Positions 10,953 to 58,519 of a stretch of DNA of 64,000 nucleotides are shown here, piece after piece; the stretch's first letter is position 1; each line of letters starts with the position of its first letter. The notes under the pieces are model-generated. The model saw only the letters and a program-made list of their open reading frames with translations, ran no database searches and had not been told where the DNA came from. Position numbers and translations under genes: made by a program. Origin of the DNA: Syncephalis plumigaleata (lineage: Eukaryota; Zoopagomycota; Zoopagomycetes; Zoopagales; Piptocephalidaceae); NCBI GenBank assembly GCA_025201365.1, contig JAIXMF010000004.1, positions 1,240,001-1,304,000 of the forward strand, given 5' to 3'.

Positions 10953-11096
10953 ATGAAGTTCTCTGCCGTTGTCGCTCTCACTAGTCTGACCGCCGTTGAA
11001 GCTAGCCCAATAGGATGCGTCGTCGCGCTGTTGTCGAACGCCGTGCTCCAAATCCTAATCCTACTGTTCCTTTCACTCATTCTTCCGACGTCTCTT
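10953..11096 (+). CDS. Small secreted peptide candidate, frame disrupted
   Basis: Seen: ATG followed by a typical signal peptide (MKFSAVVALTSLTAVEA). About 18 residues in, the frame loses sense, while the neighbouring frame continues with RMRRRAVVERRAPNPNPT and stops at 11094-11096. One extra base near 11012 would join the two into a precursor of about 48 residues with basic clusters (RRR, RR) that resemble processing sites. The single long frame to 11306 gives an unlikely hydrophobic tail, so I prefer the short version. I recognise no family. It could be a hormone-like peptide, an effector, or a chance frame; the promoter layout and signal peptide support a real gene. The break fits the one-base loss pattern seen elsewhere in this window. 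Confidence 0.4.
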
Positions 11097-11607
11097 AAGC
11101 GGACAAGACAAGGACATCATCAAGTAGATATTATAGGTATTCAAGTCAAGAATGTATTGGTGCAAGACCCTCATTTAGTGTCCATGCCATTCAAGTCTTT
11201 ATTCCTTGGTACAACAACAAATATATCTACAAGATCATCATTCAATCATTTATTGAATAAATATATGTCGTATTTGACCATAATAAGCGTACTGTTTGCA
11301 ATGTAGCATTGTTCTCTTTTACCACGTATAATTGAAGCTAGTAAATATTTTATTTTGTATATTAATGTCGTGTTCATTCTTGGATGATCAAGTTAATATG
11401 ATACTAATGTGCAGAAATCTACGATGTTTAAACGAGGACGGCATAACAATTCCAAAAATGAAACTAATATTCACTTTCTTGAATCATTTAGACAAGGCGT
11501 ATTACTCCATTTTGATCGTATTATATTCACCATAACAGCTACTGCTCTTTTCTATTATTGTTACTATTCTTATTATTGTTATTCTTTTATTACTATTCTT
11601 TAGTGAA
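11097..11607. other. Intergenic, nothing recognised
   Basis: About 500 bases between the secreted-peptide candidate and the WD40 gene. Short AT-rich open frames at 11332-11603 show no motif. A TTATTGTTA/TTATTACTA-rich tract at 11555-11600 lies just before the next start codon. Confidence 0.45.
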
Positions 11608-14600
11608 ATGGCTGTGCTACAAGATGGTCAGACGGCAGCTACACCGCTGACATCTCAGCTTGAAAGTTGGCGTACTGCACCGGCCATTCGAGGCAACAAG
11701 TAAGTGACTAGCCGGCCAACTAGTGAAGTAACAAGATAGCTAGCTAGCTAGCGAGTGAGATAACAACTAACTATTCTATAGTGCGGTTGATTCAGCTCAG
11801 TTCATACTCTCTGATGAAGGTCATTGCTTTAACGCACTCGCCGTCTCTAATGTATTTAATAAGTGTATATATGCATGCATATATATATATATATATATCG
11901 TTATTAATCTATTGTCTCTATTAGATGGGCTCCCTCCTAGTGACAGGGTCAGCAAGTCGTGATAGTAGTTTACATTTCCTACAAGCCCCGATTTACCTGA
12001 AGTACGCGAATTCTCGGTAAGTCATTCTAGTAGACTAGTTTGTAAGCATATGCTTACAAATTATTAGCCTATTAGTAGTGTGGCATGTCCAGGCCCTGTT
12101 CATTCGCTAGCATGGTCAGCCCAGTCACTATTGGTTGGATCAATTGATAATACCGTGCATGTATATCGATCGACTACTCTCGCTTGTATCCAGGCAGTAG
12201 TTCCGTCAATGATGCAGTCGATTATGTGGGTCAAGCCGCATTCCGTTCTAATAAGGTACATTGACATCGATGTATATCTATAGATTGATTAACTACAACT
12301 TGTATCAATGTAATAGCTTGGTAAATCTACCAGTAGTAGTTATATTCAAACGGGTCGTGTACAACAATTGGCATTCGCCTCTACTGATGATCCTATGGGA
12401 CAAAGTGAACAATTTGCATTTGCTATTGGTCCTGCCGTAAGTATATGGGATATCAATCATTTGAATACGTCTATTCGTTCAGATAAGGTAGGTTATTGTG
12501 CACTACTTGCTGTGTCCATTATATGCAATTAACATTATAAGTCTAGGTGTCATCCGATGTTATATTCGCGTTGGATTGGCATCCACAAGCTGCCTGTCAA
12601 CTTATAGCATTAGGTGGTGTAGATAAGAATATAACCTTGTTGGATCCGAGACAACAGGGTAAACCAGTGGTATGTATATATATATATCTAGCTTATTAGC
12701 CATATCAATAACCATCGAGAATAGGTATGGAAAAGTCGAGGTGTTCATGAAGATACGATACGTGATATAGCATGGCATCCTTATGTGCCTACTGGTTGGC
12801 CAGTGCATCCGATGATAATCATGTGCAATTCTACGATATACGCTATAGTACACGACCACTCTATACATTGTATGAACACTATGGCAGTGTTAATTCAGTA
12901 GGTATCACTTGACTAAATGTAGCTATTACTAATGTTTATTTGTATTATTATTATAGATTTGTTGGTCCAATTCACATTGTGATATGCTGGCATCAGTATC
13001 GGCAGATCGACGATTTAGATTATGGCGACTTAAATCGGAGAAATCGGAGGCAGGTCCACGTGAAGTATCCTCGGAACAAACCATCGAGTCTACACCTTTA
13101 TTTGATAGTAACGTCGTACAAGGCAAGTATAATAATATAGACATTAATAATTGAATGGAATCAATAATATATATATATGCATATATGTAGTGGTTAGTTC
13201 AAAGATTCAACCTGATGTCTATTATGCCATGTCGAATATGGGTGAAATACGAAGTTTCTCGATGACTCCCGAATTACTTGAAATGTCTACTATGCATCGG
13301 TATGTATTTGTATTTAGTAGATATAGATTAGATGTTAATCATGCGTATTAGTTATGAGGAACGAGACTATCCCGTTGAGTATTCCATTGAGACTAGTGTT
13401 TACGCGCGTGATCTCGATGCTGGTCACCGACAAGTGGCAGCATGGATTAAACGACCCGGCAATGATCAACGGTAAATAATCTATCAGTTTAGCTCTTTAT
13501 TTATCTATTATTAACCTATCTATCATTTAGTATGCAAGAAGCTAAAACTTTCCTTGAATTATTGACACCGAAACCCGCCATCGATCCCAATGCATGGACA
13601 CTATCCTCATCTAGTGGAAAGCAGAACACGGGAGCAGCAGAGGCAGCCGATGGATTTCCACGCGAGTTAGCACGTCGTGCATGGTTTTTACCTCCTGGAT
13701 TTAATATACGTTTAGCCAAACCGGTAAGCATTATTATTGATGATGATGATGATGATGATAATCAATCATAACTAATCTACATGGATAATTAGCCATCGAA
13801 AGAAGCCAAGAAAGAGCTGGATATGATGTTGGTCAAGATCAATCTACGTGATTACATTCAAAAGGGCGATGTCAATACTTTATTGTCACTAGAATCGTAA
13901 GCGTGTGCTCTTGTTATTCCTCTCGCACTATTGACTAATATTCGTTGTATACTAGTACCATTATAATGTACTCTCGCTGATTCTCGATCACTTGATTCTA
14001 GTCTCATTAAGGTAATTGTTCATTTCATATATACACTGTTATATATAATATGTTGACAATATAGGATATGCTTAAAGTGATCATGAAATCAGATCGTGTA
14101 AAAGGACTTGAATTTGGACTATCGCTCGTTGAAAGTAAATCGCTCGAGTGTCAACATTGCCTCTGTGATGCATCTCTTGTATTCCCTACTGTATTGACAA
14201 TACAAGCAATGAAGTAACTAGTCCATCTCAATCACAGAATCCTAATGACTCTATACACTCGATTGACGATGGCAATAAACGTTCCTCTAAACGAGATGAA
14301 CGTCGTGCCGTTCAACGTCAAATGGAGGATGTAGTGGTCGACTACAAACAAACAGCTGCCATGGTTCGTTTAGAAATGTAAGTAACATAGCTTACATTCA
14401 TATCAACAACATATTCTAACAACAGTAATAGTGCAATGCAAAAGGCTCGTCAACGAGAGGGCACACTAACCGCCGAGCATATCGTACCCATTGTTCGTGA
14501 TCACCGCACAATTGCAGCCACTACCAATCGACTCTACCTTAATGCACTAGTTGATCTTGGCTATTATGACGAGTATTTCAAAGTAGCAATGCAACTTATT

Positions 14601-15230
14601 GCAGTAAGTGCTGACTACACATAACAATTGTCCATTAGTGCTGTACATTTATTATTGCTATTGTTATTGTTATAGGAATATGCACGCTTCGACTTTGCTC
14701 GTACCCTCCTGCATCAATTGGCAATGGTTGTGGCACCAAAGTGTAAACAAGAATTGGACTCGTTATCTGAAGCAGCATTGGAGAGTCCAAAGAGTTACGC
14801 GGTTAAAGATTATCGTAATCATATCATGATATGCATGCGTATCATCATGCTACCTGGATCGGAAATACCTGGTCTAGGCCGTAATCTATTATCATCGTAT
14901 TTAGCGTAGGTTTCTATTCGTATATGTTGTATATTATTTATACTAACTGATCGATATGCTAGTGATCTACTCATTGGTCTCTATAGTATATTAGAGATTC
15001 TCGTTAATGAACGTAAAGACTATGCACAAGCTGCTCGGTAAGTTAACATCGTATGCTAGTCAATCAATCAATCAATCCATATTCATATATTATATATATA
15101 TATGTGTGTGTTACCTAGTGAATCCCAACAAGTACTGAAAGCCATTAAAGAGATTGCCGGTAACAGTCAGAATATTCCCGAGGAGGCCAGACGTCGCTTA
15201 GAACTATTACAAACATTTACACGCGTCTAA
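11608..15230 (+). CDS. WD40-repeat protein with helical C-terminal region
   Basis: A long gene with at least a dozen short exons. The N-terminal half carries WD40-type blades: 'VHSLAWSAQSLLVGS' at about 12100, 'FALDWHPQAACQLIALGGVDKNITLLD' style text near 12580-12650, and WLASASDDNHVQFYDIRY near 12800. The C-terminal half is alpha-helical without motifs I recognise ('LRDYIQKGDVNTLLSLES', 'YDEYFKVAMQLIA', 'RLYLNALVDLGYY'), ending LLQTFTRV. The layout resembles WD40-plus-solenoid scaffold or trafficking proteins; a WDR17-like protein is one possibility, but I cannot name the family. One break in frame at about 12795 lies inside a WD blade and needs a single extra base. The start at 11608 is the ATG opening the first exon with a good donor at 11700. 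Existence of the gene is clear; several exon edges are approximate. Confidence 0.7.
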
Positions 15231-15647
15231 ATTGACCTGACCAATCTCTATATCTGTGCATCCCCTTTTCACATTTATATATATATACTCTATTTGTATA
15301 GCGTTGATTGTATTATCCCTCGTATGTCAGGAGTAAAAGAGGAGTAGTAAACAAACAGGAGTAGATTAGGATACATACAGATGATGGTTCGTCATTATCC
15401 CCTTGCATAGACATGACATGGAATGTAATAAGAAATGAAATGATAATAAAGGATACATTTGTAGGGATGTGATCAACATCTATCCGTTCATTATTGCTCC
15501 TACTAGTACTATTAGCGACATTAGTACTTTTACTACTACTTCTACCAGATACTTTATTTGATATTCATCTAGTTCTACTCTTTTCTCTTACCATAGTAAT
15601 AGTAGTATTCTTATTCCTACCATTATCAATATCGATCCTATTATACA
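15231..15647. other. Intergenic and 5' leader
   Basis: About 415 bases. It holds the 3' end of the WD40 gene and, from about 15490, a CTACTA/TTACTT-rich leader for the secreted protein. No separate gene is visible. Confidence 0.45.
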
Positions 15648-16437
15648 ATGAAGTCAACTCTACTGATACTAGGCGTGTTATTGGCAGCCATCGATGATTC
15701 CCTCCTTCATCATCGTCATCATCGTGTAGCCGCTCAATCAGGTCTATGTGTTCATCGAGAGGCCGGTGACTATTGGCACCCGGTTTCCCCACTGCCATCT
15801 ACTCATGTCCCGACCATAAAATGGCACGTTGCGCTAATAGTCGATGTGTCACGGGATGTGATGGACGTGGTCGTTGCACGTTAGTGTCATCCATTCTAGC
15901 TAATCAGCGTATGTGCCATCAAAAGAAAGCCGGTCAATATTGTCATCCTGAATTAAAGGGCGTCTACGTGCAATGTCCCTCGAATGATGCCTTCGAATGT
16001 GCCAGTGGTCTGTGTATTACAACGCCTATGGATTTGGTACTTGTCATAGTGCTAGTGCCAACACTTATGACAACACGAATACCAATGCTAATCTCTTGAC
16101 CGGTCCTCGTCCCAGTCCTCATGCACCTGCACTCGTCGTGTCAACTGCCACACCTACAATGGCTGCCAATGCTCCTCGTCCTACCGCTAATTCACCACGT
16201 CTCACTATGCCATCACCGGTCTCTGTACCGATACCTAATACACCACCTAAATTGCCATCATTACTTGATGATTTGCCATCAGTGCCATTACTCGCGGTGA
16301 ATGTACCCGACAAGACTAACAGCAAGGAGGATCTCGATGACTTGGCCGTACCATTCCTCGGTGAAGATATGGGCGATGAATTGGCAGCATTACCTGAGGG
16401 TGTTCGTTTATCACCACGCGCTTCTTATATTGAATAA
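15648..16437 (+). CDS. Secreted cysteine-rich protein, frame disrupted twice
   Basis: Seen: an ATG with a hydrophobic signal peptide (MKSTLLILGVLLAA), then a cysteine-rich part with about 12 cysteines (GLC, YSC, ARCANSRC, TGCDGRGRC, RMC, QYC, VQC, FECASGLC, GTC), then a proline/alanine/threonine-rich tail with an acidic stretch (about KEDLDD to GEDMGDE). The coding sense moves between frames near 15780 (after DYWHP) and near 16020 (after ASGLC); in both places adding one base restores a continuous reading of about 263 residues. No intron fits these joins. The compact paired cysteines suggest a disulfide-rich extracellular or cell-wall domain. I do not recognise the family. It could be a surface adhesin-like or effector-like protein of this lineage. 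The breaks match the one-base loss pattern of the window, so I treat the gene as probably intact in the organism. Confidence 0.6.
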
Positions 16438-16555
16438 ATAGAATGCCACTCTATGTCATATAAATGATGGTTTATATGTACGGCTTTTTTATTATAACTA
16501 TGATAACTATGATTGATTGTCCTATCTAAATGATGGTTACCCTCCTAATTCAGGA

Positions 16556-18917
16556 TCAATTCACTATTTTATATAGAAGATGTGCACTGTGTTGACCTTT
16601 TTGTTTGTTGTTTGCTTGCTTAATCTCATCAGATGCTGCATTAGCTGCTCCTTCATTCTCTGAACTATCGGCACCATCGTATTCCTCGTCAAACTCTTCA
16701 GGTATATCACTATCTGAATCTTCTGCTATGAAATCTTCATCGACTAGATTCATTACATTAGTATATCACATATATATATATACAGTAGCAGTAATACTTA
16801 CCACTTTCATCTTCATCTTCATCTCCACCCTCTTCATGATTAGCCACACGAGATCGTTTACGAGATCCTTCCTCTTCTTCTGATGAACTACCTCCTTCAT
16901 CCAAACCTGCGTAGGAAGTGAGCTAATAATATTGTATTAGTATTGCTATCATTATAATGCTTATAATCTACAGTCAATATTACCTCTTCTGCTGGATCCT
17001 TACGTACAGTAACGCCCTTAGTATTTAGATAGGATAATACATTGGTGTATTCCTCCCTACATATACATATACACATACATATATTAGTATATGCACATAA
17101 TCAATCAATCACATCTACTATTTACCGATTCAAATTAGAGAATTGATGACTAACACCAGATCGTGTATTGATCTTTATATCAAAGAAGCGTGATGTAGTA
17201 ATAGCATTACTCACTCTATTGATTAATAGACTAGTTTGTTAATCATTTCTTTCCTATATATCTGTATATATTTATACATTACCGTGAGAATACAACAGAA
17301 CTGATCTCCCGTAATGGTACTAGTGTCACAGGTTTAGGTAGGAATAACAAATAGTTCTCTAATGGATAGATGAATCCTTCATTCGCCTTAAGTGAACACT
17401 TGATACCCTTCTGATTATGATGACTAGTTGTTATATATATATATATATATATATATACGTAAATAGATATACATATATTGATGCATTACTAATATAATTA
17501 CCTATTATACGAGTTACCCGGTACAGTAATCTTCTTATCGGTTAATGCACGTAGAATAGTGCTTACAATCACATAGGTGAAATTATGATAATTACTCTCT
17601 AATTTACCATCATATTTTGCTAATTCATCTCTAATTACATATCTATTAATATTCATTAGTATTGTATATACAAGTAATGACTTACGCTTCCATATTTAAG
17701 GTGACATCAGTCTCTTCCTCTTTCAAGAATTGGAATACTAAGAATGGATAGCGTGTTTGACCTTGTCGAATGGGTGGATCAATACCAATCTATTCGTGTA
17801 TTCATGTATTAATATCTTCTATATATATATATGTGTGTGTGTCATACTACATACCACAAAATATACATGAATATCATCAGGTCGTGGTACTAGGAACATG
17901 CGTGTAATAGTATCATATAATATCTTGTAATCATACGTTTTACCGCGCATTCGTAGGAAGGTTGGAAGAATTCCACTTCAAATCGAGCACTATATAATAA
18001 AAACAATGAATATATACGTATTTAGTTGAATGATGTATTAAAACTTACCGTGGTGATAAACTGAATACATCCTGAAAGCGAACAACATATTCACCAGCCA
18101 CTTGACCTAGTTCTGCCTTAGTCTTGAGTGTCTCGTAGAACAGCTGTCATCAACATGATATTAGTATATCAGGGTTATTCATCAATATTCCTCTACTTAC
18201 ATGAGCAGCACTTTGTTCTTCCTCGCCATCACCTTCATCGGTCTGTACCGTACCAGGAACGTAGAATCGTACCTCCATTAATTGATCACCTCGTCGTCGT
18301 GCACGATCTCGTTTCTCTTTCGTTGTGCCTTGTCCTTCATTTAATGACAACTCAATGCTTACTTCATTCTTGCCACTAACACTAGAATTGGACATTTCAC
18401 TTAGGGGCAATTCAAAGTTTGTCGATTACCAATATTGAACAATAAGTAATTGCCTATAGATTCATTAATAAGCCATTCTATAATCCTATTGCTGTTTATC
18501 TGCTTAACTTTACCTTGAAATTCAGTCTTGCCCCAATTCCATCCCTTTAAACATAACTCTTTAGTCTCTAGCGGTAAATGGTATTGTGCTTGATACTATT
18601 CTTGAGTCGATCAAATGCCTAATAGTAAATGTCATTATTATGAGTAATAGATTACTGATCAAGTTATATAATGACTACTTACATCCTCGTCAAACCCGTC
18701 GAATTTCACAATAGTATTGTCTTTCAATTGGATACGTAACTGATAACCACGAGAAGCACGTAGCCACTGTGTTTTACGTAGATCCTCACGTCTTATTGTA
18801 AATACTTGTCCTGTGGGTGACTTCCAGCCTAATCCACTGGCTGCTAATCTAAATTGACCCGCATCAGTATCTGATGTCCTAGATAGATTGCGTCAAAGTG
18901 TTCGATCTGTTCGTCAT
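16556..18917 (-). CDS. POB3: FACT complex subunit Pob3 (SSRP1 family)
   Basis: Pob3 with Spt16 forms FACT, the histone chaperone that loosens and rebuilds nucleosomes during transcription and replication. Seen on the minus strand: the N-terminal POB3/SSRP1 text (FDAIYL, '[20 protein letters not shown]', '[19 protein letters not shown]', VKFDGFDED), then '[14 protein letters not shown]', the middle PH-like domains with '[12 protein letters not shown]' and '[11 protein letters not shown]', and an acidic C-terminus ([16 protein letters not shown]). There is no HMG box after the acidic part, as in yeast Pob3 and unlike animal SSRP1. The gene has about nine exons. Near the start (18870-18917) two single-base losses are needed to link the ATG at 18917 through [11 protein letters not shown] to the domain. 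If those are not errors, the true start remains unknown. Confidence 0.92.
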
Positions 18918-19267
18918 ATTGTTGTTGTTGTTGTTTAAAGCGTTAAAAATAAAGGAAAAAATAAAAGAATCGACACGCTAAACAAGTAACAAAAAAAGAG
19001 GATAAAGACACGCGTCACACATAGACACACACACCTATGAATGTATATTGCATTAAGATGTCATCATGATAGTTTATTAAAAACTATATCATTTGAATAT
19101 GAACATCGATGATGGCGTCATTTGACTATGTTCATTCGAAATTAATGTATTAGTCAGGGTTGTTCCACTTATTTAAGTACTACGTTTGTCGTTGTTTCTG
19201 GGATTACGTCGACAACCTTCCTTCTACTTCTTTCTCTACTACTATTGACTTGTATCTACACTATTTG
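18918..19267. promoter_or_regulatory. Divergent promoter of POB3 and MsrA gene
   Basis: About 350 bases between two divergent starts. A (TTG)n/(CAA)n run at 18920-18936 lies just upstream of the POB3 ATG, and a CTACTTCTTTC-type pyrimidine tract at 19220-19245 precedes the MsrA ATG. No other gene is visible. Confidence 0.45.
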
Positions 19268-20062
19268 ATGTTCAAGTTTATTCAACGTCACTCTCGTCTA
19301 GTACTACGACCGTCCACTTCTTTAGGTTATTTCTACACTCGATATCATACAGGAAATATGACTGAGAAAGCCACATTTGCCGCCGGTTGTTTCTGGAGTG
19401 TTGAACTCGCATTTCAACGTCTCGAGGGTGTTACCTCAACTGCCGTAGGCTATACAGGTGGACATAAACCGAATCCTACCTATAATGAAGTATGGTAAGC
19501 GTATACATATTATATATATACTAGATTGTCATTTATTCGAATAACTCACCGTTTACTCCCTATTTAGCACGGGCGAGACTGGACATGCTGAAGCGGTACA
19601 GCTTGAATTCGATCCTGCCATTACTAGTTACAATAAGCTGTTACGTGCATTCTGGGACAAACACAATCCAACCACACTTAATCGTCAGGTAGTTAAGCAG
19701 GGAATAGATCAAATTATGAACACTATCAAGCTTAATCATGATTATCTATACATTATTGATTAGGGTAATGACATTGGTAGTCAGTATAGATCTGCTATCT
19801 TTTATCATACAGAGGGTCAACACGGAGAGGCTGTCGCTAGTCTAGCTGAGGAACAAGCCAAATACGATGAACCAATTGTTACGGAAATAGTACAAGCCAC
19901 CGAGTTTTGGCCAGCAGAGGAGTATCATCAAAAGTATTTGGAAAAGGTAAAAATAATTAACATCTTTATATAGTTGCACATAAACATCATTACTCATTAA
20001 TGTACTAGGGTGGTCAGTGTTCTGCAAAAGGTTGTGCTGATGCCATTCGTTGTTATGGTTAG
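19268..20062 (+). CDS. MXR1: Peptide methionine sulfoxide reductase MsrA
   Basis: MsrA reduces methionine-S-sulfoxide back to methionine in proteins, using a catalytic cysteine recycled by thioredoxin. Seen: the active-site motif GCFWS, '[19 protein letters not shown]', '[13 protein letters not shown]', '[27 protein letters not shown]' in parts, FYHTEGQ, and C-terminal cysteines ([17 protein letters not shown]) suited to recycling. Four exons: 19268-19494, 19568-19688, 19764-19946, 20009-20062. The ATG at 19268 adds an N-terminal stretch rich in R, S and aromatic residues ([21 protein letters not shown]) that looks like a mitochondrial presequence. A second in-frame ATG about 30 codons on would give the cytosolic form, so dual targeting is plausible but inferred. 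Frame is intact. Confidence 0.95.
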
Positions 20063-20351
20063 AGTGATGAGGCATACTAAATGATATGTGGATATATCCA
20101 AGAAGTATCGCTACAAATACCATTAATAAAACAATATACTCGTAACTGGTTCATCTACTATCATTATCACTTATTATTATTACATTATATTAGAGAGAAT
20201 TGTGTACTCCTCATTCTTATATAATAGTCTACTTTATTATAAAGTAATGTGTCAAACTATACCATCAATAAGCATTAGGATCTATATAACCTGATGTATA
20301 TACACACATATACATTTATATATCTATCTATCAATTGATCAATCGATCGAG

Positions 20352-21876
20352 TTAGTAATAGGCCGGTGAGGGTGGATAGGCCGATGCCGGTTTATTCTGT
20401 CCTGAACCATTGGGACGTGGATGTTGCTGATGTTGCTGTTGTTGCTGTGGTGGTGGTGGTGGATAGGCCGAATTAGCACCAGGTGGTGGTGCATAACCAG
20501 CAGGTAGAGCAGGTGCAGCATAACTACTAGTGACATTATTATTACCAGCAGTAGGTACTTGTCCAATAGGTGGTGGTGGTGGATATGCACCAGGTGTACT
20601 AGTTACTTTTTGTTGAAGTGGAGGAGGTGGAGGATAAACAGAACCTGCATTCACTGGTGGATAGACAGCAGCAGTAGCAGCGCTATTAGCATTAGAAACT
20701 GCTGCTGCTATTGTTGCAGTACTAGTTGCCGTACTAGTTGTAGGTGGTGGATACACGCTATTGGCATTAGTTGGTGGATAAGGTGCAATTGCATTTGTAT
20801 TGCCTGTAGTTCCTCCATTTGAATTGTTCATTGCATTTGCCTGTTGTTGATTTGGTGGTGGTGGTGGAGGATAGACAGATGAACCACTATTATTAGGGTT
20901 ATTGCAGCAGCAGCAGGAGGAGGATAGACAGATGAACCAGTCTCATAAGGTGGATTACTATGAGTACTAGCATTACTATTTGTATTATTATTTGCTACAC
21001 CATTCGCTGCAGCATGTGTAGCTAATACAGGAGAGGTTGGTGCCTGTGAATTACTATTCAATGCACCATTAGCATTGCTACTACTATTACTCGCAGGTCG
21101 AGGTGGATATGCCGATGGATTGCTATGATGTCCATGATTCGGATTATTATTCGCTATAATCAAATGAATAAGTAATCAATCAATATATATATATAAGATG
21201 TTAGCTTACCTGATGAATAACCTGAACTGGGAAGTGTCTTCAATAGTTTATCAAGTTGTTGGCATAGCTCTATTAATTCATATTGTTTAGACTGTTGACC
21301 TTGGAATGCTACTACTGTTGGAGGTGGAAGTCGTTCACGATCTATCACACACATATATATATATCTGTTAGATGAGAGTAGCTTATATTTACCTGTATAG
21401 ATACTTACCATAAACCATGACTTTCAATGTCTTGCTTGTTTGATACACCGATTGTATATCAACATCATCTGTTAGCGTAACTAAATCACCATCTAATAGT
21501 TATGAAATACATTGTATAAAGTTATTATAACGATGAAGCAAATGATAATAAGAGTAAATAGCTACCTTCATCTAGATATTTCAGAATATGATTTTCAGGT
21601 TGAATTGAAAGTTGACTTGCGAATAGTCGAGTAATAGCTGCTCTTACACTAAATAGATAGATAGGTAGATAGATATTAGTACAAATAGTGTCTATTTCCA
21701 TATAACATTTACTCAACTCGTTAAGAGTGGGAAGGGCGGCAAATGCCATACGACGTATATCTCCAGCACAGTTGCCTAACAAGTAGTACTGCATTAGTAA
21801 TAGTTATATGTCTGTCAATCTATCTATCTATTTATATCCTACATTTAACTGTATATACCGTGCCTGTGTAACTCAT
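20352..21876 (-). CDS. TFG-like protein: PB1 domain, short coiled coil, P/Q/Y-rich tail
   Basis: TFG is a COPII-associated scaffold at ER exit sites that oligomerises through its PB1 domain and forms condensates through its P/Q-rich tail. Seen here: a PB1-like N-terminus (GDIRRMAFAALPTLNEL, 'LKYLDE', 'GDLVTLTDDVDIQSVYQ', KTLKVMVY), then a short helical segment 'QYELIELCQQLDKLLKTLPS', matching in position and character the ELIELRNKVNRLLDSLE segment of human TFG as I recall it, then a long N/S/P/Q tail with many copies of a YPPPP-type unit (SVYPPP, VYPPVNAG, GAYPPPPP, GYAPPPG, SAYPPPPP), ending AYPPSPAYY. About six exons; the start ATG at 21876 gives MSYTGT joined across an intron. One frame break at about 20905 in the tail needs a single extra base. 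Identity rests on domain order and the helix match, so it is likely but not certain. Confidence 0.75.
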
Positions 21877-42227: not shown

Positions 42228-42498
42228 TCCATATAAATTGGATTATTTGTTAAATAAACATCAGATAACATGCATCTACATTGATGATACTACGAGTTAA
42301 ATACTGAACAACTAATATTAAATAATATGCACGATTGAAATAGTACAATATCGTCATAGCTCATTTTACGATGATTACAATCATGTGATAAACTTGTGAT
42401 GCAAGTAAATCAATGGATAAAACAGATCAAATCCAATCGCTAATCATTGCTCAACATATTTCTATTCATTTCTATAGCAACTATCGTGCATTTACAAT

Positions 42499-43881: not shown

Positions 43882-44070
43882 TGGTAATAATTTATTTGTT
43901 GAACTAAACTTGAATAAAATAATAATAATAATAAAGAGGTTATGGCATTATATAGATTCATTAGTCAGGGAACATCAATTGGGAATACTGATTTATTCAA
44001 ATGAAATCGAATCATGAAGGCAACTGTATATGACATTAGTGTTCGAATATTTGATGATCCTATGCTGCAT

Positions 44071-46115: not shown

Positions 46116-46173
46116 ATGATTTGATGCTGTCGTGTGGCGGCATTACGCTCTATTCTGTACGACGCTTATTCAC

Positions 46174-46200
46174 GAGAGAGAGAGAGAGAGAGAGGGAGAG
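46174..46200. repeat. GA dinucleotide tract
   Basis: A near-perfect GAGAGA run of about 27 bases, upstream of the monooxygenase gene and beyond the 3' end of the hydrolase gene. Simple repeat, possibly a promoter element. Confidence 0.8.
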
Positions 46201-46270
46201 TAAAACATGGTCATGACATTAGAATAGCATCGCATAAGGCAACTATAAAATTGAAGCATCTTAGTAAGCA

Positions 46271-47293
46271 TTAACTAATTTTATTATTACAACTATCTAA
46301 ACAATGATGATCATTAATGGCGTTGTCTTCTATGAAATGAGCAATAGTTTGACTATAACCCGGTTGTAGGAAGGTATTCTCATGTAGTCCATATGGAAAT
46401 GCCTTAAAGATTGGACGCGGTGCATGAGGAGTTGCCTCGATAGTTTGCGCTAATTGTTGCATCATCGATACTGGCACCAGTTCATCTTTACTCCCTGATA
46501 ACAATAGGGTAGGTGGTAGTTTGGTACTAGTCTCACGAATAGCACGTTCTGTATCCCATCGATCATATAGAAAATAACGAGCTAGATATTTATAGGGCAT
46601 CCAGCGGGGAAACACCGCACCCACCAGTGCTTCCATGCTCGTGAACGTATTCTCCAGGATTAGACCACGAATAGGTGACGGGGTGTAGTGACGAGCAGCA
46701 TCTAGCGCAAGGTGTAATGCCACTGCCCCACCAATACTATGGCCATAAACGAATATCGGTGTTTCCCGATCGACATATCGTTTCATGGTGTAATCGAGGA
46801 TACGTAATGCATCCTCACGTAGGCCTGGTTGTGTGGGCCTACCATTGGAGCCACCATAGCCACGCGTATGAATGGCCACGATACGCGATGTCAATGGTAG
46901 TTGAGCTAGTATACGCTCGAATACAGGAATACGCTGAAGCATGTTGCCCGCATTTCCTTGAAAGTATATAATTATTGGGCTTGCAGAAGATGTGGCTACT
47001 GCGGTGGCGGATGCCGCTGTTGTCTTTTTACGCTGAAATGTATAGCCTTGCAAACGAATAAACGAACCTTTTTCACGTGGAATAACTATCTCCTCGCCTT
47101 GTAAACTTGACCGATAAGTACGGGTGAGCACCTCGGCTAATGGCGCGGGCTGACGAGCATTAGGCGGCAGATAGGACACGTAAATAACACGTCGTTGGAA
47201 TAGTGTCATGACGAGGCATTTGTAAAAGTAAACGGATAACGGGACACCTACCACTATAGTAGCAAGAGTAGGTAATTGCGATAACACTCCCAT
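46271..47293 (-). CDS. Alpha/beta hydrolase, Bem46/ABHD13 type
   Basis: A single-exon gene of 340 residues. Seen: an N-terminal membrane anchor (LPTLATIVVGVPLSVYFYKC), then the alpha/beta-hydrolase core: oxyanion strand 'IIIYFQGNAGNM', 'TRGYGGSNGRPTQPGLREDA', the nucleophile elbow GHSIGGAVAL with catalytic Ser, 'LILENTFTSMEALV', the acid loop LLSGSKDELVP (Asp) and the His in 'FPYGLHENTF'. Length, anchor and the FQGNAGN/GYG-S motifs fit the Bem46/ABHD13 group, membrane-bound hydrolases whose substrate is not well established; Bem46 has been linked to polarity in fungi. Full and unbroken, starting at the ATG 47293. Confidence 0.9.
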   Translation of the reverse strand: MGVLSQLPTLATIVVGVPLSVYFYKCLVMTLFQRRVIYVSYLPPNARQPAPLAEVLTRTYRSSLQGEEIVIPREKGSFIRLQGYTFQRKKTTAASATAVATSSASPIIIYFQGNAGNMLQRIPVFERILAQLPLTSRIVAIHTRGYGGSNGRPTQPGLREDALRILDYTMKRYVDRETPIFVYGHSIGGAVALHLALDAARHYTPSPIRGLILENTFTSMEALVGAVFPRWMPYKYLARYFLYDRWDTERAIRETSTKLPPTLLLSGSKDELVPVSMMQQLAQTIEATPHAPRPIFKAFPYGLHENTFLQPGYSQTIAHFIEDNAINDHHCLDSCNNKIS

Positions 47294-47584
47294 AGCTACT
47301 ATAGTTAGTTATTATTATTCTTGTCCTTGTCCTTGATAAGTTGGCCGTATATATATAGCCGAATGATTATGCTAGTTGTATTGCAAGTACATTTCAAAGT
47401 GTCAAGTATAAAAGCATGAAAATAAATATAAAAAGTCGAATAATTCCTATCTCGTTCTATCGTTCTATTATTATGATCTTATAATGTCTAATGCAAAACC
47501 AGTACAGTTAAACAAATTGAACCATTGGCCTGTTTAATATGAATGCTATAGTAACACTTTAATGCAATAATATAATAGGATGAA

Positions 47585-49168
47585 TCACAAAAATTTCAGT
47601 TGATTAAGTAGTGCTGCCTGTGATGTGGTCGATGTCGATGACGCGGATCGCGACGAGGAGAATGGATCGGGTCCGATTCCTTCGAAATCAGCACCGGTTC
47701 CTTCGTAATAAGCATTGCCAGTGAGTTCCGTGTCGACTTCTACCTCAAATTCCTCAAGAAAAGTCATTAGTTCCGGGCTCTCTTCTTTTACGGGAATACG
47801 ACCGGATGTCGTGCCAGCCGGAAGGAATAATTGATCAGGAATGGGAGGTAAGGAGGTAAATACGCGACGTGCCTGTTCCACATCGAATCCAGCACGTGGC
47901 GGGTGCTTATGCCCTACAGCACGGATAATCTCCTCGATACTAGTGTGTTTCTGTATCAGTTTTAGAGCACGTATCGGACCGATTCCTTCAAGTGTACTAG
48001 AGAAATCGGTACCGCATAGAATACACATATCAATGAATTGACTACGCGTCATACCAAGGATTTGTCGTGCTACCCCGGCATTAATCTCGAACACAGGTCG
48101 ATCCCGTACGTAGAAATGACGCAACAATGGATAGTCACCGAATGCCGCTGCATCCGTATCTTCCGAGATGGTGGCACGCGAGATACCAGCTGCCGCCAAA
48201 CTAACGCACATTGCCTCCGCCTCATAGTCGCCCGATGTGATGTGAAGGTAGCCCCACAATTCTACTAGACGTTTAATATCTGCCACAAAATCTGCTGTCA
48301 CGTAGGCAGCTCGTTTCTCTAGTGAAACGAGTGTATTGTGATTATCGGTAGTAATCCGTTCTATACGTTGATTAAGTTTATCTCGATTACTCGCATCGCC
48401 AATAGTAAGTAAACTACGTGGTAATCCTTGTAATAAACGATGTTCAAATGCCTCCAGATACTTGTGGTTTTTAGTGGGTGGTAATACTTCAGTAGCTACT
48501 GCTCGTTCTCGATGATGATGATGTATTTTTTCTGATACTTCTTTAGTGTCCGTAATCAACCCTGATGATGATGGTGATGATGGTGATGGTTGTTGTTGTT
48601 CTCGTTTACTGGCATCAAATGCATCACGTATTAATTGCTGTAGATGATCTAGCGCCACTTGTGCCGATGTGGATAATTGATCGGTATCGGTCGCTTCATA
48701 CTCCATGACAGGATGAGATGGTGCCTCACCCGTAATCTCTTGCCAACTATTCCTAGCCCGATTGAACCATGCTCGTCTATCAGCCGTATCCAACTGATTG
48801 ACATCGGCCACTAGTCCCGCCAGTCGTTCTAGTCGTTCTGCTCGTGCTTTCGAGACGTATAACTCTCGTTCAGTCTGATTCTTTAGTCGTTGTCGGCGCT
48901 CGCTCTCTCGTTGTTTAGATTCCGCTCGTTGTTCCCCGTCAAACACGAATATCGGTCGCATCTTCCAGGCTTGCAAATGACGACATAGTCCGTAGAATCC
49001 CACTACATGTGGATAGGCATACTGCAAGTGTCCAGCGTATACAAAGCGATGCAAATAAAGACTGGCATCGATAGCCACTGGCCAGCCACGATAGTAATGC
49101 GGTCGATTCTCCTTGATAGCATTAGGCGCAAAGCGCTGCAAAAGACGCGTTAGATCACGTACACCCAT
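47585..49168 (-). CDS. FEN1/XPG-family structure-specific nuclease
   Basis: Rad2/XPG-family nucleases cut 5' flaps or related branched DNA. A single exon of 527 residues. Seen: the N-domain MGVRDLTRLLQRF with Asp34 in VAIDASLYL and Asp77 in IFVFDGEQ, an insert of about 150 residues with a basic helical part (ESKQRESERRQRLKNQTERE), then the I-domain 'GDYEAEAMCVSLAAAGIS' with the two Glu, 'ATISEDTDAAAFG' with two Asp, and the helix-two-turn-helix region 'CILCGTDFSSTLEGIGPIRA'. All metal-binding acidic residues of the family are present, so it should be active. The N-terminus starts with MGVRDL rather than MGI+G of canonical FEN1, and the N-to-I insert is longer than FEN1's helical arch, so it is probably a paralogue, not Rad27 itself. 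Head-to-head with ELF1 (337 bases). Confidence 0.88.
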   Translation of the reverse strand: MGVRDLTRLLQRFAPNAIKENRPHYYRGWPVAIDASLYLHRFVYAGHLQYAYPHVVGFYGLCRHLQAWKMRPIFVFDGEQRAESKQRESERRQRLKNQTERELYVSKARAERLERLAGLVADVNQLDTADRRAWFNRARNSWQEITGEAPSHPVMEYEATDTDQLSTSAQVALDHLQQLIRDAFDASKREQQQPSPSSPSSSGLITDTKEVSEKIHHHHRERAVATEVLPPTKNHKYLEAFEHRLLQGLPRSLLTIGDASNRDKLNQRIERITTDNHNTLVSLEKRAAYVTADFVADIKRLVELWGYLHITSGDYEAEAMCVSLAAAGISRATISEDTDAAAFGDYPLLRHFYVRDRPVFEINAGVARQILGMTRSQFIDMCILCGTDFSSTLEGIGPIRALKLIQKHTSIEEIIRAVGHKHPPRAGFDVEQARRVFTSLPPIPDQLFLPAGTTSGRIPVKEESPELMTFLEEFEVEVDTELTGNAYYEGTGADFEGIGPDPFSSSRSASSTSTTSQAALLNQLKFL

Positions 49169-49505
49169 AGAAACGATATAAACGATAGAAACAATAGAAA
49201 CGATGGGTTATAGGCATAGAGACACACAATTGTACACGTACGTATACACGTACAATAACGTTAGTGTACTATAAACGTAGGAGAGAAACGAATATCACGC
49301 TCGTATGGTATGGCAATAGAAGAAAAGCAATTTTGATATGAACTTGAATGATGGACAAATGAACAAAAGTATGATGATAAATGGCGCCAACATTTTCAGT
49401 TTTTCTTTCTTATTCGCTATTCAATATCACCACTACTATTACTACTATTACCACTATTACGCGTTTTCCTTCTTATCTATCACTTTTAGTTAGCTATTTG
49501 TTAAG
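49169..49505. promoter_or_regulatory. Bidirectional promoter, nuclease and ELF1 genes
   Basis: Divergent starts 337 bases apart. GAAACAATAGAAACGATA-type imperfect repeats at 49168-49205 follow the nuclease ATG, and ACTACTATTACTACTATTAC repeats at 49430-49460 precede ELF1. Confidence 0.45.
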
Positions 49506-50169
49506 ATGGGTAAACGTAAATCAGCACGTAAGCCTGTGGCCAAAGTGCGTCAGAGACTAGATAAACAATTCAGCTGCATCTTTTGTAATCACGAAAAATC
49601 CATCGAAGTTAAACTGTAAGTTGATGATCGTTGCTATTTATTAGTGCTGTATACTTATGAATGAGCATGTCTGCACTGCATCCACTATAGCGATAAAGAG
49701 AGTAAAGTCGGCAATGTAATGTGTCGTGTTTGCTCTGCCAATTGGCAAACATCTATCAATTGTAAGTGGTCATCTAATAGATAACACAGATAAATAGCTA
49801 ACATCAATGATTATAGATTTATCAGAACCGGTAGATGTTTACTCGGAATGGATCGATGCATGCGAGGCTGCACAACAGGAGGATGCACGCGCAAACTACG
49901 ATGAAGACGATCGAGATCGATCAGACTATGGTCGATCAACCAATAGTCGTGGTTATAATGACAATGACGAAGATGACGAGGACAATTCAAGATCGACTAG
50001 TGCAAATCGCCGTAATCGTAATGAAAGAGAGGAGGAAGACGAAGATGAAGAGGAAGATGATCCATGGGGATCTGGTGGAGGTAGTAGAGGTGGCAATACA
50101 AGCAAGGGACGTAATTACGATGACTATGATGATGAAGATGACGAAGAAGATGATGGACTATTTGGATAG
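49506..50169 (+). CDS. ELF1: Transcription elongation factor Elf1
   Basis: Elf1/ELOF1 is a small zinc protein that rides with elongating RNA polymerase II and helps it pass nucleosomes and lesions. Seen: MGKRKSARKPVAKVRQRLDK, then the four-cysteine zinc site FSCIFC ... MCRVCSANWQT, and 'YLSEPVDVYSEWIDACE', all in family order. The tail is an unusually long acidic and Asn/Arg-rich stretch (DEDDEDNSRS, EEEDEDEEEDDPWGSGG, DDYDDEDDEEDDGLFG); yeast has a shorter acidic tail and human ELOF1 lacks it. Three exons with introns at about 49617-49689 and 49761-49815, both joining in frame (KL|DKES, SIN|YLSE). Start fixed by the conserved MGKRK. Confidence 0.97.
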
Positions 50170-50285
50170 TCTATTGTAAAATACCAATAATATCAATATT
50201 AATATCAATATCAGTAATAATAATACGTTGTTCATTCGATGTGGATATTATGCGTTGACATACAATGAAGAATATTTACATTATT

Positions 50286-52343
50286 CTACCAACGACGATG
50301 ATATGTTTCTGTGGTGGTAGTGTAGCGTATCCAACGTTGAGGTGGTGTACTAGTTGCTTGATTAAGTATACGTAGACGTGTTACGGCAAGCGTGGAGCAA
50401 GTGTAGTTGGCAATCTCGAATTCCATCCTAGCGTATATTGTTATTGCAAAAGTTATTACAAACATCTTTGAGTATTCTAGTCTAGCTTATTACCTAATGA
50501 ACTTGAGTTCACTACGAAACGCTTCTTGCCATAATTGATCGAGCAATGCCTATACCATTATAATAAACATACATGAAACAGACAATTAGATAAGATGAGA
50601 AGATTACTAGCATGTATATGTATATTCATGATTACCGTAGTAGTTAATGAACGTTCTGTACTGCCGTGTACATTGGTTATCCGCCATATTAGTCGTGATT
50701 GTTCTCGATCGAAAACAATATGTCGATTTGCTTCAGACAACGCGTCCATTTGGAAGGATGCACTATTAGTTAGGATTAGCGTATGCACTATCATTACTAT
50801 TGTTGCTAACTAACCTAACAACAGCACGCGGTAAAGGAATGATCATTGTACATTGAGTGGCAGTGCGTTCCGAAGTAAAGTCTGCTCGAATTCTAATACG
50901 AATTACAATACGACGCGGATCATCCAACGGTGTCTCTAACAGGGGAATAATTTGAAATGGTACCACAAAATCGTCGGTAATTTGATAGCTAACCATAGTT
51001 CCATGTAATATGAATTAGCAATAAGACAATAAACCTATCTAGCATAATGACTAACTACCTAGCGATGACTAGTTCACCCGCTGGAGCATATAAACTAAGT
51101 GTCTGCTCCTCTTCGAATGCTATTCGTAAAATGTCACATTAGTTAGAATGTAATCATCGCACTTTTTATAGGCAGCACGTACCAACACGATCAACACTAT
51201 CGTGTAGTCGACAATCGCGCAATTGAATTGCACTTGCATCGATACTTTTACCTAAATCTAATCAACACTCGATCAATAGGCATGATCACATTTATATTAA
51301 ACTATATACGTGATACTACACTTACCCGTTGATTGATCCGATGAGGTAGCAATACACAACTTGGGCGATAGCTGTATCTTAAGTAAGGCTCGCCACCAAG
51401 GAAACATCTAGTTTTAATGATACCATCAACGACTGCACGAACTATTTCTCCCTTGATACATGATCATTATCAGTATTGTCCTATTCACTATGTATATATC
51501 GTATATATATATATATAACCTACATCTTCATCAAATATACAATGGATACGCTCGATGATATCCAAATACAAGGCTTCATCGTCAAAGTCATGACTACTCG
51601 TGGATAATGCTGATCTTATGGTGGCTGGTGCCGCTTGACGATTTGGATCATCCTAGTAAACGAGCTAGTTAATTACATGATCACATTTTATCATTTACAT
51701 CTTTATACTTGCAGTGATAAAATGAGATAATTTGGATATAACACTCGATGATGCTGATACTGCTGCTATTGATGTAGACGATGATGACGATGATGACAAC
51801 TGATGTGATGTAAACTGAGACGATAGTGTCGATAATGTCATACGTGTTGGATAGCCATCTGTCTAATGATGACATTGATACCGATTAGAATTGCAATTAT
51901 AGAAATGCTATAACAGATACTCACTAGTGCTTCCTCCAATAGTTCGTATACAAGTGTGTCATGTTTACGTACGAGTGCTTCTTCGGGTGCACCACATACG
52001 CTAACAATAAGTTGACCCAAACGAGTGAGTGTTTCCAATGCTTCAGCCGAGGAAACTGGTCTATCTAGCGAACAACCGCCGATATACAGTTCGCCATAGA
52101 GTATATGAATAAGAAATAGATTATCAACACGATAGATAGGTGGCGTGTCAAGCTTCTCTAGCAGTCGGTCAGTCAATAGAAATAGCGCATCCGACGGTGT
52201 ATCATAACGGTCTTTAAGCGATAAGAGTATAATGGTAAGATATTTATTATACATCGTTGCATTCCTACTTTACGTAATTACTTACAATCCTTACGAACGA
52301 GCGGTGTTCCTTCTTCATTCAGGATGAACACCTGCGAGAACAT
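50286..52343 (-). CDS. AP-4 complex mu subunit
   Basis: AP-4 sorts cargo at the trans-Golgi network; the mu subunit recognises tyrosine-type signals. Seen: the longin-like N-domain MFSQVFILNEEGTPLVRKDY, 'RYDTPSDALFLLTDRLLEKL', then 'HDTLVYELLEEAL' followed across an intron by DGYPTRMTLSTL (equivalent to the VYELLDEVLDYGYVQTT of human AP4M1 as I recall it), a Ser-rich link, 'VLPHRINQ', and the MHD: 'SIDASAIQLRDCRLHDSVDR', 'LSLYAPAGELVIARMVSYQI', TDDFVVPFQIIPLLE, 'TQCTMIIPLPRAV', 'LIWRITNVHGSTERSL', 'MEFEIANYTCSTLAVTRLRI', with the final strand QRWIRYTTTTETY. The APAGEL..MRYQ-ITDD..PF pattern favours AP-4 over AP-1/2/3 mu. About eleven short exons. Start ATG 52343; stop 50286. Confidence 0.85.
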
Positions 52344-52575
52344 GTTTCGCCAATACTAAGAGATACTAGTTGTCTTTGATATATATATATGTATATGTAT
52401 GTATATAGTAGAAGAGGAGAACAAGACGCAATAATAGTAATAATAGTAGTAATAGCAGTAATAAGTACGAATTGAATAAGGCGTGGCGGTGTCTAGATTT
52501 CGTCAACACAAGTGCGTATTCCACAGTTGTTCCATTTCCTTTCCTGTTCCTGTCCACTTGACCGTAATCATCACT
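52344..52575. promoter_or_regulatory. Bidirectional promoter between two adaptor-subunit genes
   Basis: Only 232 bases separate the divergent ATGs of the AP-4 mu and AP-1 sigma genes. It holds a TATATATATGTATATG tract (52379-52400) and an ATAGTAATAATAGTAGTAAT run (52430-52460). A shared promoter is implied by spacing alone. Confidence 0.5.
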
Positions 52576-53421
52576 ATGGCGGTAGGCAATAAGCAAGTCT
52601 CCTATGCCAATAACCTAGTATTAACTGTTGGTTACGTTATATTTCATTGCAATAGATAAATTTCGTTTTGCTTGTAAGTAAACAGGGCAAGGTACGCCTG
52701 GCCAAATGGTATCAAACCTTGTCACTGCGTGATCGTTCCAAGATTATCAAAGATGTCACGCAACTGGTATTAGCTCGTAAACCAAAGATGTGCAATATTC
52801 TTGAGTATAAAGGTGAGCCAAAATGAAGGAGATACACTGATACAGATGCTTACGTAGTATTATTTCGTTTAGATACCAAGATTGTCTATAGACGGTAGGT
52901 TAAATGACGCGCGAGTTTTACTTGTAGCTGTGTATTTACGCTCAAACTATGATACAGCTACGCTAGTCTATTCTTCCTCGCGGGTATTGACCAGGATGAC
53001 AACGAGCTAATTACGCTGGAGATTGTTCATCGATATGTGGAAATATTAGACCGCTACTTTGGCAATGTAAGAAACATGCATACGCTAAGCATGAAATTAT
53101 TCAATCCAATCATTAGTAGATGCTTATAACTACTATTTGTTTATATTGTTACTAGGTATGCGAGCTTGATCTTATATTCAACTTCCAAAAGGTACTTGTT
53201 ACTTCAATAGTCTACTATTATTGTTGTTTATTAGCAATCCAGTAATAATAATCATCATCATGCATTGACTACAGGCTTATTTCGTGTTGGAGGAGTTACT
53301 TGTCACGGGTGAACTACAAGAATCAAGTAAGAAGGCGGTTCTACGAGCGATTAGCCAGCAAGATTCACTTGAGGACACTGAGCGAAGTGAACGACCATGG
53401 ATGGAGTTTGCCACATCCTAG
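52576..53421 (+). CDS. APS1: AP-1 complex sigma subunit
   Basis: The small sigma subunit of the clathrin adaptor AP-1 at the trans-Golgi network and endosomes. Seen: [20 protein letters not shown], '[20 protein letters not shown]', [20 protein letters not shown], '[20 protein letters not shown]', [20 protein letters not shown], '[20 protein letters not shown]'. 'ARKPKMC' and 'ELITLEVIHRYVE' are hallmarks of AP-1 sigma rather than AP-2, 3 or 4. The first coding exon is only six bases, ATG GCG (52576-52581), followed by an intron to 52655, so the protein starts MAINFVLL. Introns then fall near 52813-52872, 52893-52959, 53067-53155 and 53192-53273. Stop 53419-53421. Confidence 0.95.
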
Positions 53422-53790
53422 GGAACTATTAGCGTGAATCATTCATATCTATATTTACTGTATCACGCGCACGCACGCACGTACGCACGCTGAACGTGAT
53501 CGCCATTTCATCCATGCCATTGCTATTGTGCAATAAACGTAACAATTTATCGTTTCATTCCGTGAAACCTGTGGCGTCTGTTGTAACACGGTTGCTCACC
53601 AGTGTAATCAATCACGGTCATCGCTTAAACCGTAGTGTTTCAGTGCCCACGTAAACTGTTGATATCTCTTCAAGCCTACTTCAACTGATCGATTACGCTT
53701 TTCTTTATCTCTCTTTTCTAACTGACTGACTGATTGACTGACTGACTGACTGATTGATATCTAACGCACACTCCTCTTATTGTCTACACA
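53422..53790. other. Intergenic with tandem CTGA repeat
   Basis: About 370 bases. CACGCACGCACGTACGC at about 53466-53490 and a CTGA/TTGA tandem run at 53721-53757 directly upstream of the next ATG. I looked for a tRNA or snoRNA at 53560-53650 and did not find one I could support. Confidence 0.45.
53721..53757 (+). repeat. CTGA tetranucleotide tandem repeat
   Basis: About nine units of CTGA, two of them varied to TTGA, ending 33 bases before the ATG at 53791. It lies in the probable 5' leader of that gene. Confidence 0.85.
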
Positions 53791-54567: not shown

Positions 54568-54668
54568 GAAACTTGGAATGGGCCATCACATTTGTTCCAT
54601 GTTGTCGTTCGTTTATTTCCAATATTTTTACTACATTTTATTTTTATTAACAGCGTATTATTTTACTA

Positions 54669-55660: not shown

Positions 55661-55893
55661 AATGGATAGCTCTATATTAATAGTATAAAAATGCAAAACC
55701 AGTAAATGAATTGAAGCGTACAGAAATATACGATTGATACAAATAGAATGAGATTATTAGGTAAGGAGACGTGAAAGTTCGTGTGTGCGTGTCTGTCATT
55801 ATCATCCTTCCTCACTCTTTCCTTTTAATAGACGTGTTTTTTTCGATTTAATTTTTCATTAACGACTCGTGTCATTGACTACTAACATCCAGC

Positions 55894-58519
55894 ATGCACA
55901 TACTTCATGTGGCGGAGAAACCTGCCATTGCCAAATCTATTGCACAGATCCTGTCCAAGGGTGACATGCGAATGGTAAGCTGGCACTGCGATAAACACGT
56001 ATATAATAGTGACACTTATCTTGATATTAGGAGCAAAGTTGTGCTAAATACAACAAGAACTACTGCTTCAAGTATCGGATAGGAACGCAACTACACGATA
56101 TGGTGGTGACATCGGTGCTAGGACACCTTACGGAGGACGACTTTCCCGCAGAGTATCGACAATGGTCTAATTGGCCACCGGCCATATTGTTTGAAGCACC
56201 TATACAGCGTACCATTTCAAAAGTAAGTGCCGACTAATCACTCGCGACACGTTATCGCCTCCTAATACATCGATGACAGAATATGAAGGATGTCCATAAG
56301 AATCTGTTGAATAAATCACGATACGCGGTAGAGTTGTATCTATGGACGGATTGCGATCGAGAAGGCGAGAATATAGCCTATGAAATTGCGCAAGCATGTC
56401 GCCAAGCAATGCTCGCTTAGTACTACGTAGACCGCGTTTCTCGGTAATTAACAGTAGGTTAGTCATCCTAAATGTGAATAATAATAGTATTAAGATGATT
56501 GAGAAACTAACGCACACATACACACACACATGCCATGATAGAGACATTAATCGGGCGTGTCAGTCGCCGCATGAACTCGATATGCGACTTGTACACGCCG
56601 TAGATACGCGTCGTGAACTTGATCTACGTATCGGCGCAATATTTACTCGTTTTCAAACAATGCGATTTCAACGACGATTCCCCTTGCTTGGTAAACGCGT
56701 CATTAGCTATGGTAATACATTGTCGTACACTTGATGAAGGAGTAGCACTGACTCTAATGGTATCCCATTAACAATTAGGCGGTTGTCAATTTCCTACACT
56801 TGGTTTTGTGGTGGATCGATTTCTAAAGGTGGAGAACTTTGTACCGCAAACCTTTTGGAAAATTGAAGTGCGCGTCGAACGTGATGATGCGCAGGTCAAC
56901 TTTCTATGGCGTCGTGTTCATCTATTCGATCGACTCTCCTGTATGGTGCTTTATGAGGAATGCGTCGAAACACCGGTAGCCACTGTAGTATCGGTACGAT
57001 CACGCGCAACATCTAAATGGTAATGCAAAGGGAAACGATATCGAAAGCCATTACTCCTCATCAATGCTTACTGATGCGTATATATATATATATATATTTG
57101 TACAGGAAACCATTACCATTAACTACGGTGGAATTGCAAAAGAGTGCCACTCGCTTTCTAAACATGTCATCTGATCAGGCAATGGCCGTGAGTACATGAA
57201 CAGTTGCTAGCTGTTGCTGTTGTTATTACTAAACTACATTCATATTAGGCGGCTGAATCACTCTACATTCGCGGTCTTATTAGCTATCCTCGTACGGAGA
57301 CTAATCGATTCGACAAGTCATTTCCATTCAATACAATGATCGAAAGACAAGTTAACGACGCGTCATGGGGTTCATTTGCTCAAAAGTAGGTGGTACTCGA
57401 TAGTCATAGCGTGTAGGCACATCATTACATCATTAATAGAATACAAAAATGAATACAGCTTACTAAACGGTGGCTTCCATGCACCACGACAAGGCAAGGA
57501 TGACGATAAAGCCCATCCGCCCATTCATCCTACTGGACATGCCACCGATATGAATCAACACGAGAAGAGTGTATTCGAATTTGTTACACGTCGATTTCTC
57601 GCATGTTGCGCCGATGATGCTCGTGGTCGTGAAACACGCGTTGAAATCAATATTAGCGGTGAAGTATTCTGGACCAAAGGTAAGCTAATACAACAGTATT
57701 ACTACTATTATAATACATATATACTAATAGTAATAACTGCTATAGGCCTTATTGTTGATGCGAGAAACTATCTTGATGTCTACAAGTATGAACGATGGAA
57801 TACTCGCGTTATTCCCAATTTTCAACAAGGCGAAACATTCATACCGAATGAGCTTATGATGACAGAAGGTCGAACTAGTGCACCCAGTTTATTACGTGAG
57901 GCCGATCTTATCGCTATGATGGATGCCAATGGCATTGGTATGGGATCAGCAATGAAGTGTACACATTAACATCCATGTAGTAGTAGTACTAACAACAATC
58001 TTGATGTGCTTATTAGGTACGGATGCAACAATACATGAACATATCAAGAAGATCATTGAACGTGAATACGTGTTCAAGCAGAATGGCTACTTTTACCCAT
58101 CTACACTGGGTATTGGCCTGGTACGCGGTTATGATCGTATCGATCTTGAACACTCATTAACCAAACCATTGCTACGTCGTCAGGTGTGTGTAGATTAAGA
58201 TCAACCGGTATTATCATTGCGTAGTTGAATAGTCATTAAACAATTACTACTTGACTAGATGGAACAAGACTTGAAGTTAATATGCGAGGGAAGCCGTCAT
58301 CGTGAACAAGTGATCCAAGCAACCCTAAACAATTATCAACAAATGTTTGAACGGACCCATAGAAATGCAGCGATATTGGAAGAGGTAAAAGTAGACATGA
58401 ACCTGCTTAATAGAAGAAGAATAGACTACTAATCGACATGTCTCTATGATTGCTGCTGTTATTGTTGTTGTTGAATCCTATAGGAATTGAATCGTTATCT
58501 AGGCAATAATCCTTCGTAG
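55894..58519 (+). CDS. TOP3: DNA topoisomerase III (Top3)
   Basis: Type IA topoisomerase that with Sgs1/BLM and Rmi1 dissolves double Holliday junctions. Seen: the TOPRIM start MHILHVAEKPAIAKSIAQIL, 'YNKNYCFKYRIGTQLHDMVV', 'TSVLGHLTEDDF', 'LYLWTDCDREGENIAYEIAQ' (the acidic DxD TOPRIM motif), 'RELDLRIGAIFTRFQTMRFQ', 'FPTLGFVVDRFLKVENFVPQ', and the active tyrosine in GLISYPRTETNRF. Later 'DDKAHPPIHPTGHATDM', 'MMTEGRTSAPSLLREADLIA', 'YFYPSTLGIGLVRGYD'. It ends 'YLGNNPS' without the C-terminal zinc-finger/GRF domains of animal TOP3A, as in yeast. About ten exons. A frame break at about 56405 within CRQANARL needs one extra base (probably AAA read as AA); the following join to about 56541 is also uncertain. 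Confidence 0.95.

Follow-up and report, generated by a model that had tools for sequence, protein, structure and literature searches.

All coordinates refer to the window, the whole stretch of 64,000 nucleotides that was analysed, which is part of contig C318 in the genome of the mycoparasitic fungus Syncephalis plumigaleata. Read from left to right, the genes considered here were a member of a secreted-peptide family, a WD40-repeat protein gene, a Cys-rich secreted protein gene, POB3, a TFG-like gene, the start of a CAP-like gene, a receptor-like gene, a WD40 gene at 42.8 kb (whose protein is identical to an annotated S. plumigaleata protein), an adaptor-complex mu-like gene, an AP-1 sigma gene and TOP3. 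The labels Cys-rich, TFG-like and CAP-like are those of the first-pass annotation, which had listed ten sites where one base seemed to be missing, always in the same direction.

The assembly comprises 32.6 Mb in 383 contigs (the longest of at least 3.05 Mb), and many loci have a second copy. Since 11 locus pairs (a small contig against a larger one) were mostly 95-99% identical, this is, judged by its sequence, a heterozygous assembly with haplotigs, which are mostly 1-5% divergent. From its shape it looks like a long-read assembly; literature searches on the sequencing platform found no publication on the sequencing of this assembly. Over window 34870-53485 (+ strand), contig alignment identified a second copy, the haplotig contig C203 of 18,654 bases. 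The assembly contained no second copy of window 11400-18600 (both of the two candidates were scored), which includes the densest patch of breaks in the WD40-repeat gene, or of window 18500-20500.

Breaks were identified with our own frame-aware protein-to-DNA aligner, which allowed introns and penalised missing and extra bases equally, or by comparison with C203. Five window genes, all checked against relatives or the haplotig, contained sixteen one-base-short breaks in total: nine in the WD40-repeat gene, four in POB3, and a single one in each of TOP3, adaptor mu and the receptor. None of the five had a credible extra base. If both directions were equally likely, the chance of all 16 falling in one direction would be 3e-5. 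Homologous residues were contiguous, or nearly so, across each tested junction. The breaks were unevenly spread: 13 fell at 11.9-18.9 kb of the window, where some 3.9 kb of coding sequence was aligned, and only two in about 4.75 kb aligned in the mu, TOP3, 42.8-kb WD40 and AP-1 sigma genes, the last two of which showed no break in the window when aligned to relatives. The one-directional pattern of the first-pass annotation therefore held, with 16 missing bases against no credible extra base, and had been undercounted: absent from its list were the breaks at 11985, 12167, 13966, 13977, 14140, 14157, 14180, 14194, 17958, 18418, 18585 and 51391.

The WD40-repeat protein gene (11608-15228, + strand) had breaks at about 11985, 12167, 12788, 13966, 13977, 14140, 14157, 14180 and 14194 in alignments to proteins of S. 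fuscata (P0005) and Thamnocephalis (P0006). P0005 aligned over all of its 858 residues, with 664 of 845 identical (79%), and P0006 was identical at 513 of 830. Seven of the nine breaks were required by P0005 and by P0006, within three bases of each other, and the break that had been noticed at 12795 was placed by both proteins at about 12788. For 13966 and 13977, P0006 called two missing bases and P0005 one extra base; the two missing bases are the better fit to the residues. Six breaks lay within about 230 bases in the densest patch (13966-14196, + strand), and four of these six were called with both relatives. The aligned codons of the gene contained no in-frame stop and their conservation was normal; given its identity to S. 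fuscata and the lack of in-frame stops, the gene does not look decayed. An extra base called with P0006 at 13334 was discounted, because P0006 has no sequence there. The gene resembles a GATOR2-type subunit; this name was not given to it, because the PDB matches (best, WDR24) span the propeller only. Among the best 7995 candidates by shared words, with protein length limited, there was no S. plumigaleata protein for this gene or for the mu gene, and the clean 42.8-kb gene did return one.

POB3 (17010-18919, - strand) had one-base-short breaks at about 18877, 18585, 18418 and 17958. Alignment to Komagataella POB3 yielded the last three and the 18877 junction, and human SSRP1 backed 18585, 18418 and 17958 within about 15 bases, its own alignment starting at 18859, short of 18877. 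The 18877 break, already proposed in the first-pass annotation, was upheld by Komagataella POB3, for which the aligner wrote two extra bases at 18870; these were read as one missing base, the frame effect being identical. A possible fifth break lies at 18914, where the conserved peptide FDAIYLG is in a different frame from the nearby ATG; adding this peptide improved the best PDB POB3 match from 1.6e-9 to 4.8e-12. A break is plausible at this position on the strength of the peptide, but an upstream start exon could also explain it, and it was not counted among the 16. TOP3 (55894-58520, + strand) was broken only once over the 602 residues aligned to human TOP3A, at about 56406, in agreement with the listed 56405.

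C203 spans two of the 16 breaks, 37092 and 51391; each site has an additional base in C203, where the frame is open. The break in the receptor-like gene (37092-37093, - strand) corresponds to the one listed at 37105, which is confirmed by the second copy. The break at 51391 lies in the adaptor-complex mu-like gene (50288-52343, - strand), whose S. fuscata ortholog P0022 contains PF00928. In exon 2 of the same gene it is C203 that has one extra base, and the window is intact there. The AP-1 sigma gene (52686-53383, + strand) is intact in the window, where the AP-1 sigma 1A chain aligned without a break, and one base short twice in C203 (52979 and 53331). The two copies were therefore discordant at 37092, 51391, 52979 and 53331. 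Because C203 has the mu and receptor bases and yet it alone lacks the two AP-1 sigma bases, the defects follow the contig, and thus belong to contigs rather than to genes.

Two further calls in the mu gene were set aside: an extra base called with P0022 at 51712 in both copies was better read as a GC-AG intron, and a missing-base call at an intron border of the C203 mu gene was read as intronic. The probable GC-AG intron (window 51708-51652, minus strand) is present in both haplotypes. The receptor-like gene is hyper-divergent between haplotypes (window 35600-37400 against C203 locus L031), with identities of 62-72% at 36.8-37.4 kb and 81-93% at 35.6-36.8 kb, between flanks of 94-99%. The compared receptor exon peptide is open in C203, its first exon peptide had no Pfam match, and ab initio gene finding returned no receptor model in either copy. 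These divergent receptor haplotypes are candidate balanced or recognition alleles.

Taken together, four of the ten listed sites were confirmed by relatives or by the second copy (12795, 18877, 37105 and 56405), four were plausible (15780, 16020, 18914 and 20905) and two needed no error (11012 and 31580). The secreted-peptide family member (10953-11252, + strand) had been given a break at 11012, and none is needed: its unaltered frame runs open through 100 codons, as it does in the paralogs L011 and L013. L011, about 15 kb upstream, was 97.7% identical over 175 bases, gapless and in an equal frame, with ATA where the start codon stands in the window copy. Eight copies of this peptide were read; three (window, L011 and L013) were open for 100 codons with a shared tail, and the remaining five were open for 40-41 codons. 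The family of short secreted-looking peptides (window 9350-11284; L011-L020) had at least 87 matched pieces across the genome. For the CAP-like gene start (30866-31610, - strand), the break at 31580 is weak, as an in-frame ATG at about 31560 makes it unnecessary. The offsets of the Cys-rich secreted protein gene (15652-16437, + strand) at about 15780 and 16020 were read by eye and are plausible, the Cys-rich repeats lining up only over a one-base-short junction. The TFG-like gene (20352-21794, - strand) has a plausible break in its low-complexity tail, listed at 20905 and called solely by the ab initio model, at 20902.

Ab initio gene finding with frameshift states was used as support only, because the codon signal was weak and breaks were absorbed into false introns. 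The first rough model called missing bases at 375, 11244, 16567, 20902 and 34952 and extra bases at 5477 and 23868. The next run called missing bases at 14208, 16426, 20902, 33938, 51706 and 56396 and an extra base at 26522; a single-gene run called missing bases at 14209, 51706 and 56397 and extra bases at 18881 (POB3) and 34240; a later run called a missing base at 20902 and extra bases at 26523, 27800 and 53265. Two of the extra bases disagree with alignment to a relative, which gave a one-base-short break for 18881 and an unbroken frame for 53265, in AP-1 sigma. At other loci, missing bases were called in L034, L040 and L045, and extra bases in L045 and at the corresponding position in L046. 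FOX2, MsrA, ABHD, the nuclease and PKA-R, described earlier as clean, had no break in the ab initio gene models. The assertion that no site needs a base removed stood in the relative-checked window genes, but may not hold more widely: ab initio models placed extra bases at 26522, 34240 and 27800, and haplotig C203 carries one in the mu gene. With these ab initio calls and the C203 mu base, the one-direction rule is not absolute.

The sequence context of 20 junctions was inspected. The slippery heptamer X XXY YYZ was found at none of them, and the longest run nearby was 1 to 4 bases, like the background, so the short-homopolymer context that had been proposed for the breaks was not borne out by any enrichment. 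Homopolymer runs of at least 4 bases occurred at 4.75 per kb in 11.3-21.2 kb, 5.7-7.8 per kb downstream and 3.6 per kb in 0-9.9 kb; the patch does not stand out clearly by these counts, which are not decisive. Association with homopolymers is common in long-read consensus errors and does not define them. An excess of third codon positions would be expected if heterozygous sites had been dropped; the mean third-position posterior was 0.37 for 12 junctions and 0.354 for 1826 simulated deletions (p 0.31).

One-base indels between assembled copies were also clustered. C203 differed from the window by 2 one-base indels and 173 SNPs in kb 3-15, and by 9 one-base indels and 11 SNPs in kb 16-18, at the right contig end; for these nine, the window was short by 5 bases and C203 by 4. 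Over the compared stretch of contig C27, one-base indels and SNPs numbered 0 and 57 in its kb 0-4, 2 and 11 in the next kb and 7 and 1 in the last 0.9 kb, the C203 and C27 bins having been picked after the data were seen. There was no indel surge at the left end of C203, which adjoins a very divergent block, and 2 of the 3 contig ends examined combined rising one-base indels with falling SNPs. Nine other haplotig pairs, aligned over 68,009 bases (C27 end included), differed by 1,058 SNPs and by 45 one-base indels, of which 16 fell within a homopolymer or a dinucleotide repeat. Where both copies of these pairs had a predicted exon (33,587 bp), all 10 indels were multiples of three; this control is biased, since broken exons are apt to be skipped by the gene finder. 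Two further indels (6 and 2 bases) lay in an exon that was predicted for just one of the copies. Haplotig-pair indels in open frames were multiples of three in 22 of 54 cases for frames of at least 110 codons and in 7 of 15 for frames of at least 200 codons. The 8 others in the longer frames comprised 6 in the divergent receptor block, 1 in a probable intron (42747) and 1 where L037 and L038 differ by one base within a run of C (4003); these open-frame counts are not decisive. Most of the sequence examined elsewhere looks sound, and the defects are patchy.

The breaks are very probably false single-base consensus deletions in low-quality patches of a heterozygous, apparently long-read assembly. 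The poor-consensus patches would be 11.9-18.9 kb of the window and the final 2.6 kb of the C203-C318 overlap, where thin or mixed-haplotype read support may have led the consensus to drop single bases, on a platform that is itself deduced. Two traits of long-read consensus indel error were observed: one-base indels in conserved frames, and discordance between assembled copies. The likeness extends to published accounts: indel errors are described as fragmenting genes, with most of the indels detected in the Pss508 bacterial assembly being false deletions (PMC12007338), and the collapsing of alleles as introducing indel errors (PMC8445201); in both, as here, one-base indels break conserved frames. 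PMC12007338 ties deletions mainly to homopolymers, whereas the junctions here were not enriched for long runs. The explanation by assembly or base-call deletions, which the first-pass annotation had also favoured, is supported by C203, which is free of the defect at both covered sites and has its own defects elsewhere; the homopolymer link and the sites 11012 and 31580 did not survive, and the list understated both the number of breaks and their patchiness. Because the 11.9-18.9 kb patch has no second copy, the case for deletion error there draws on the relatives and, by analogy, on what is seen in the region shared with C203. Confidence in deletion error, although high, is lowered by the ab initio extra-base calls in genes lacking a relative check.

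Real loss-of-function alleles or pseudogenes, in which an intact second copy shelters the deletions, are improbable. The culture is heterozygous and the copies differ at the tested sites, as such alleles would; but the WD40-repeat gene would have suffered nine one-base losses with no nonsense codon in its aligned part and with normal conservation, so that relaxed constraint, nonsense and indels of all kinds, the traits of a pseudogene, were not seen in it. In addition, each haplotype would need a different core gene to be broken within a few kb, and the shared exons of the nine pairs, biased as that control is, held indels in multiples of three only. Programmed -1 (or +2) ribosomal frameshifting in many genes would account for the uniform direction of the offsets in the checked genes, and the nominal direction of the shift is the same as in programmed -1 frameshifting. 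Unlike in that system, no junction had the heptamer, the S. fuscata and Thamnocephalis predicted proteins run through the WD40 sites in one frame (at the protein level), and the second copy keeps its frame at the two sites open to comparison, 37092 and 51391; six shifts would also have to occur within 230 bases of one gene. Frameshifting on this scale is therefore exceedingly unlikely. It is scarcely credible that several housekeeping genes in 11-21 kb truly lack these bases and are rescued at the RNA or ribosome level. Introns that went unrecognised, or gene starts placed wrongly, fit 31580 (downstream ATG), possibly 18914 (upstream start exon), and the extra-base call at 51712 (GC-AG intron), but the 16 sites leave no room for an intron of at least 38 bases, the shortest allowed, which makes this a very improbable cause of the breaks.

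Consensus deletion is hence retained as the reading of the 16 breaks, which are most likely artefact rather than biology; the affected genes are presumably ordinary and intact in the organism. The annotation may have lost or shortened the WD40-repeat and mu genes. The result is a caution and not a discovery: in patches of this kind, public gene models from this assembly are probably cut short or absent, and counts of gene loss or of pseudogenes for S. plumigaleata should need more than the assembly alone.
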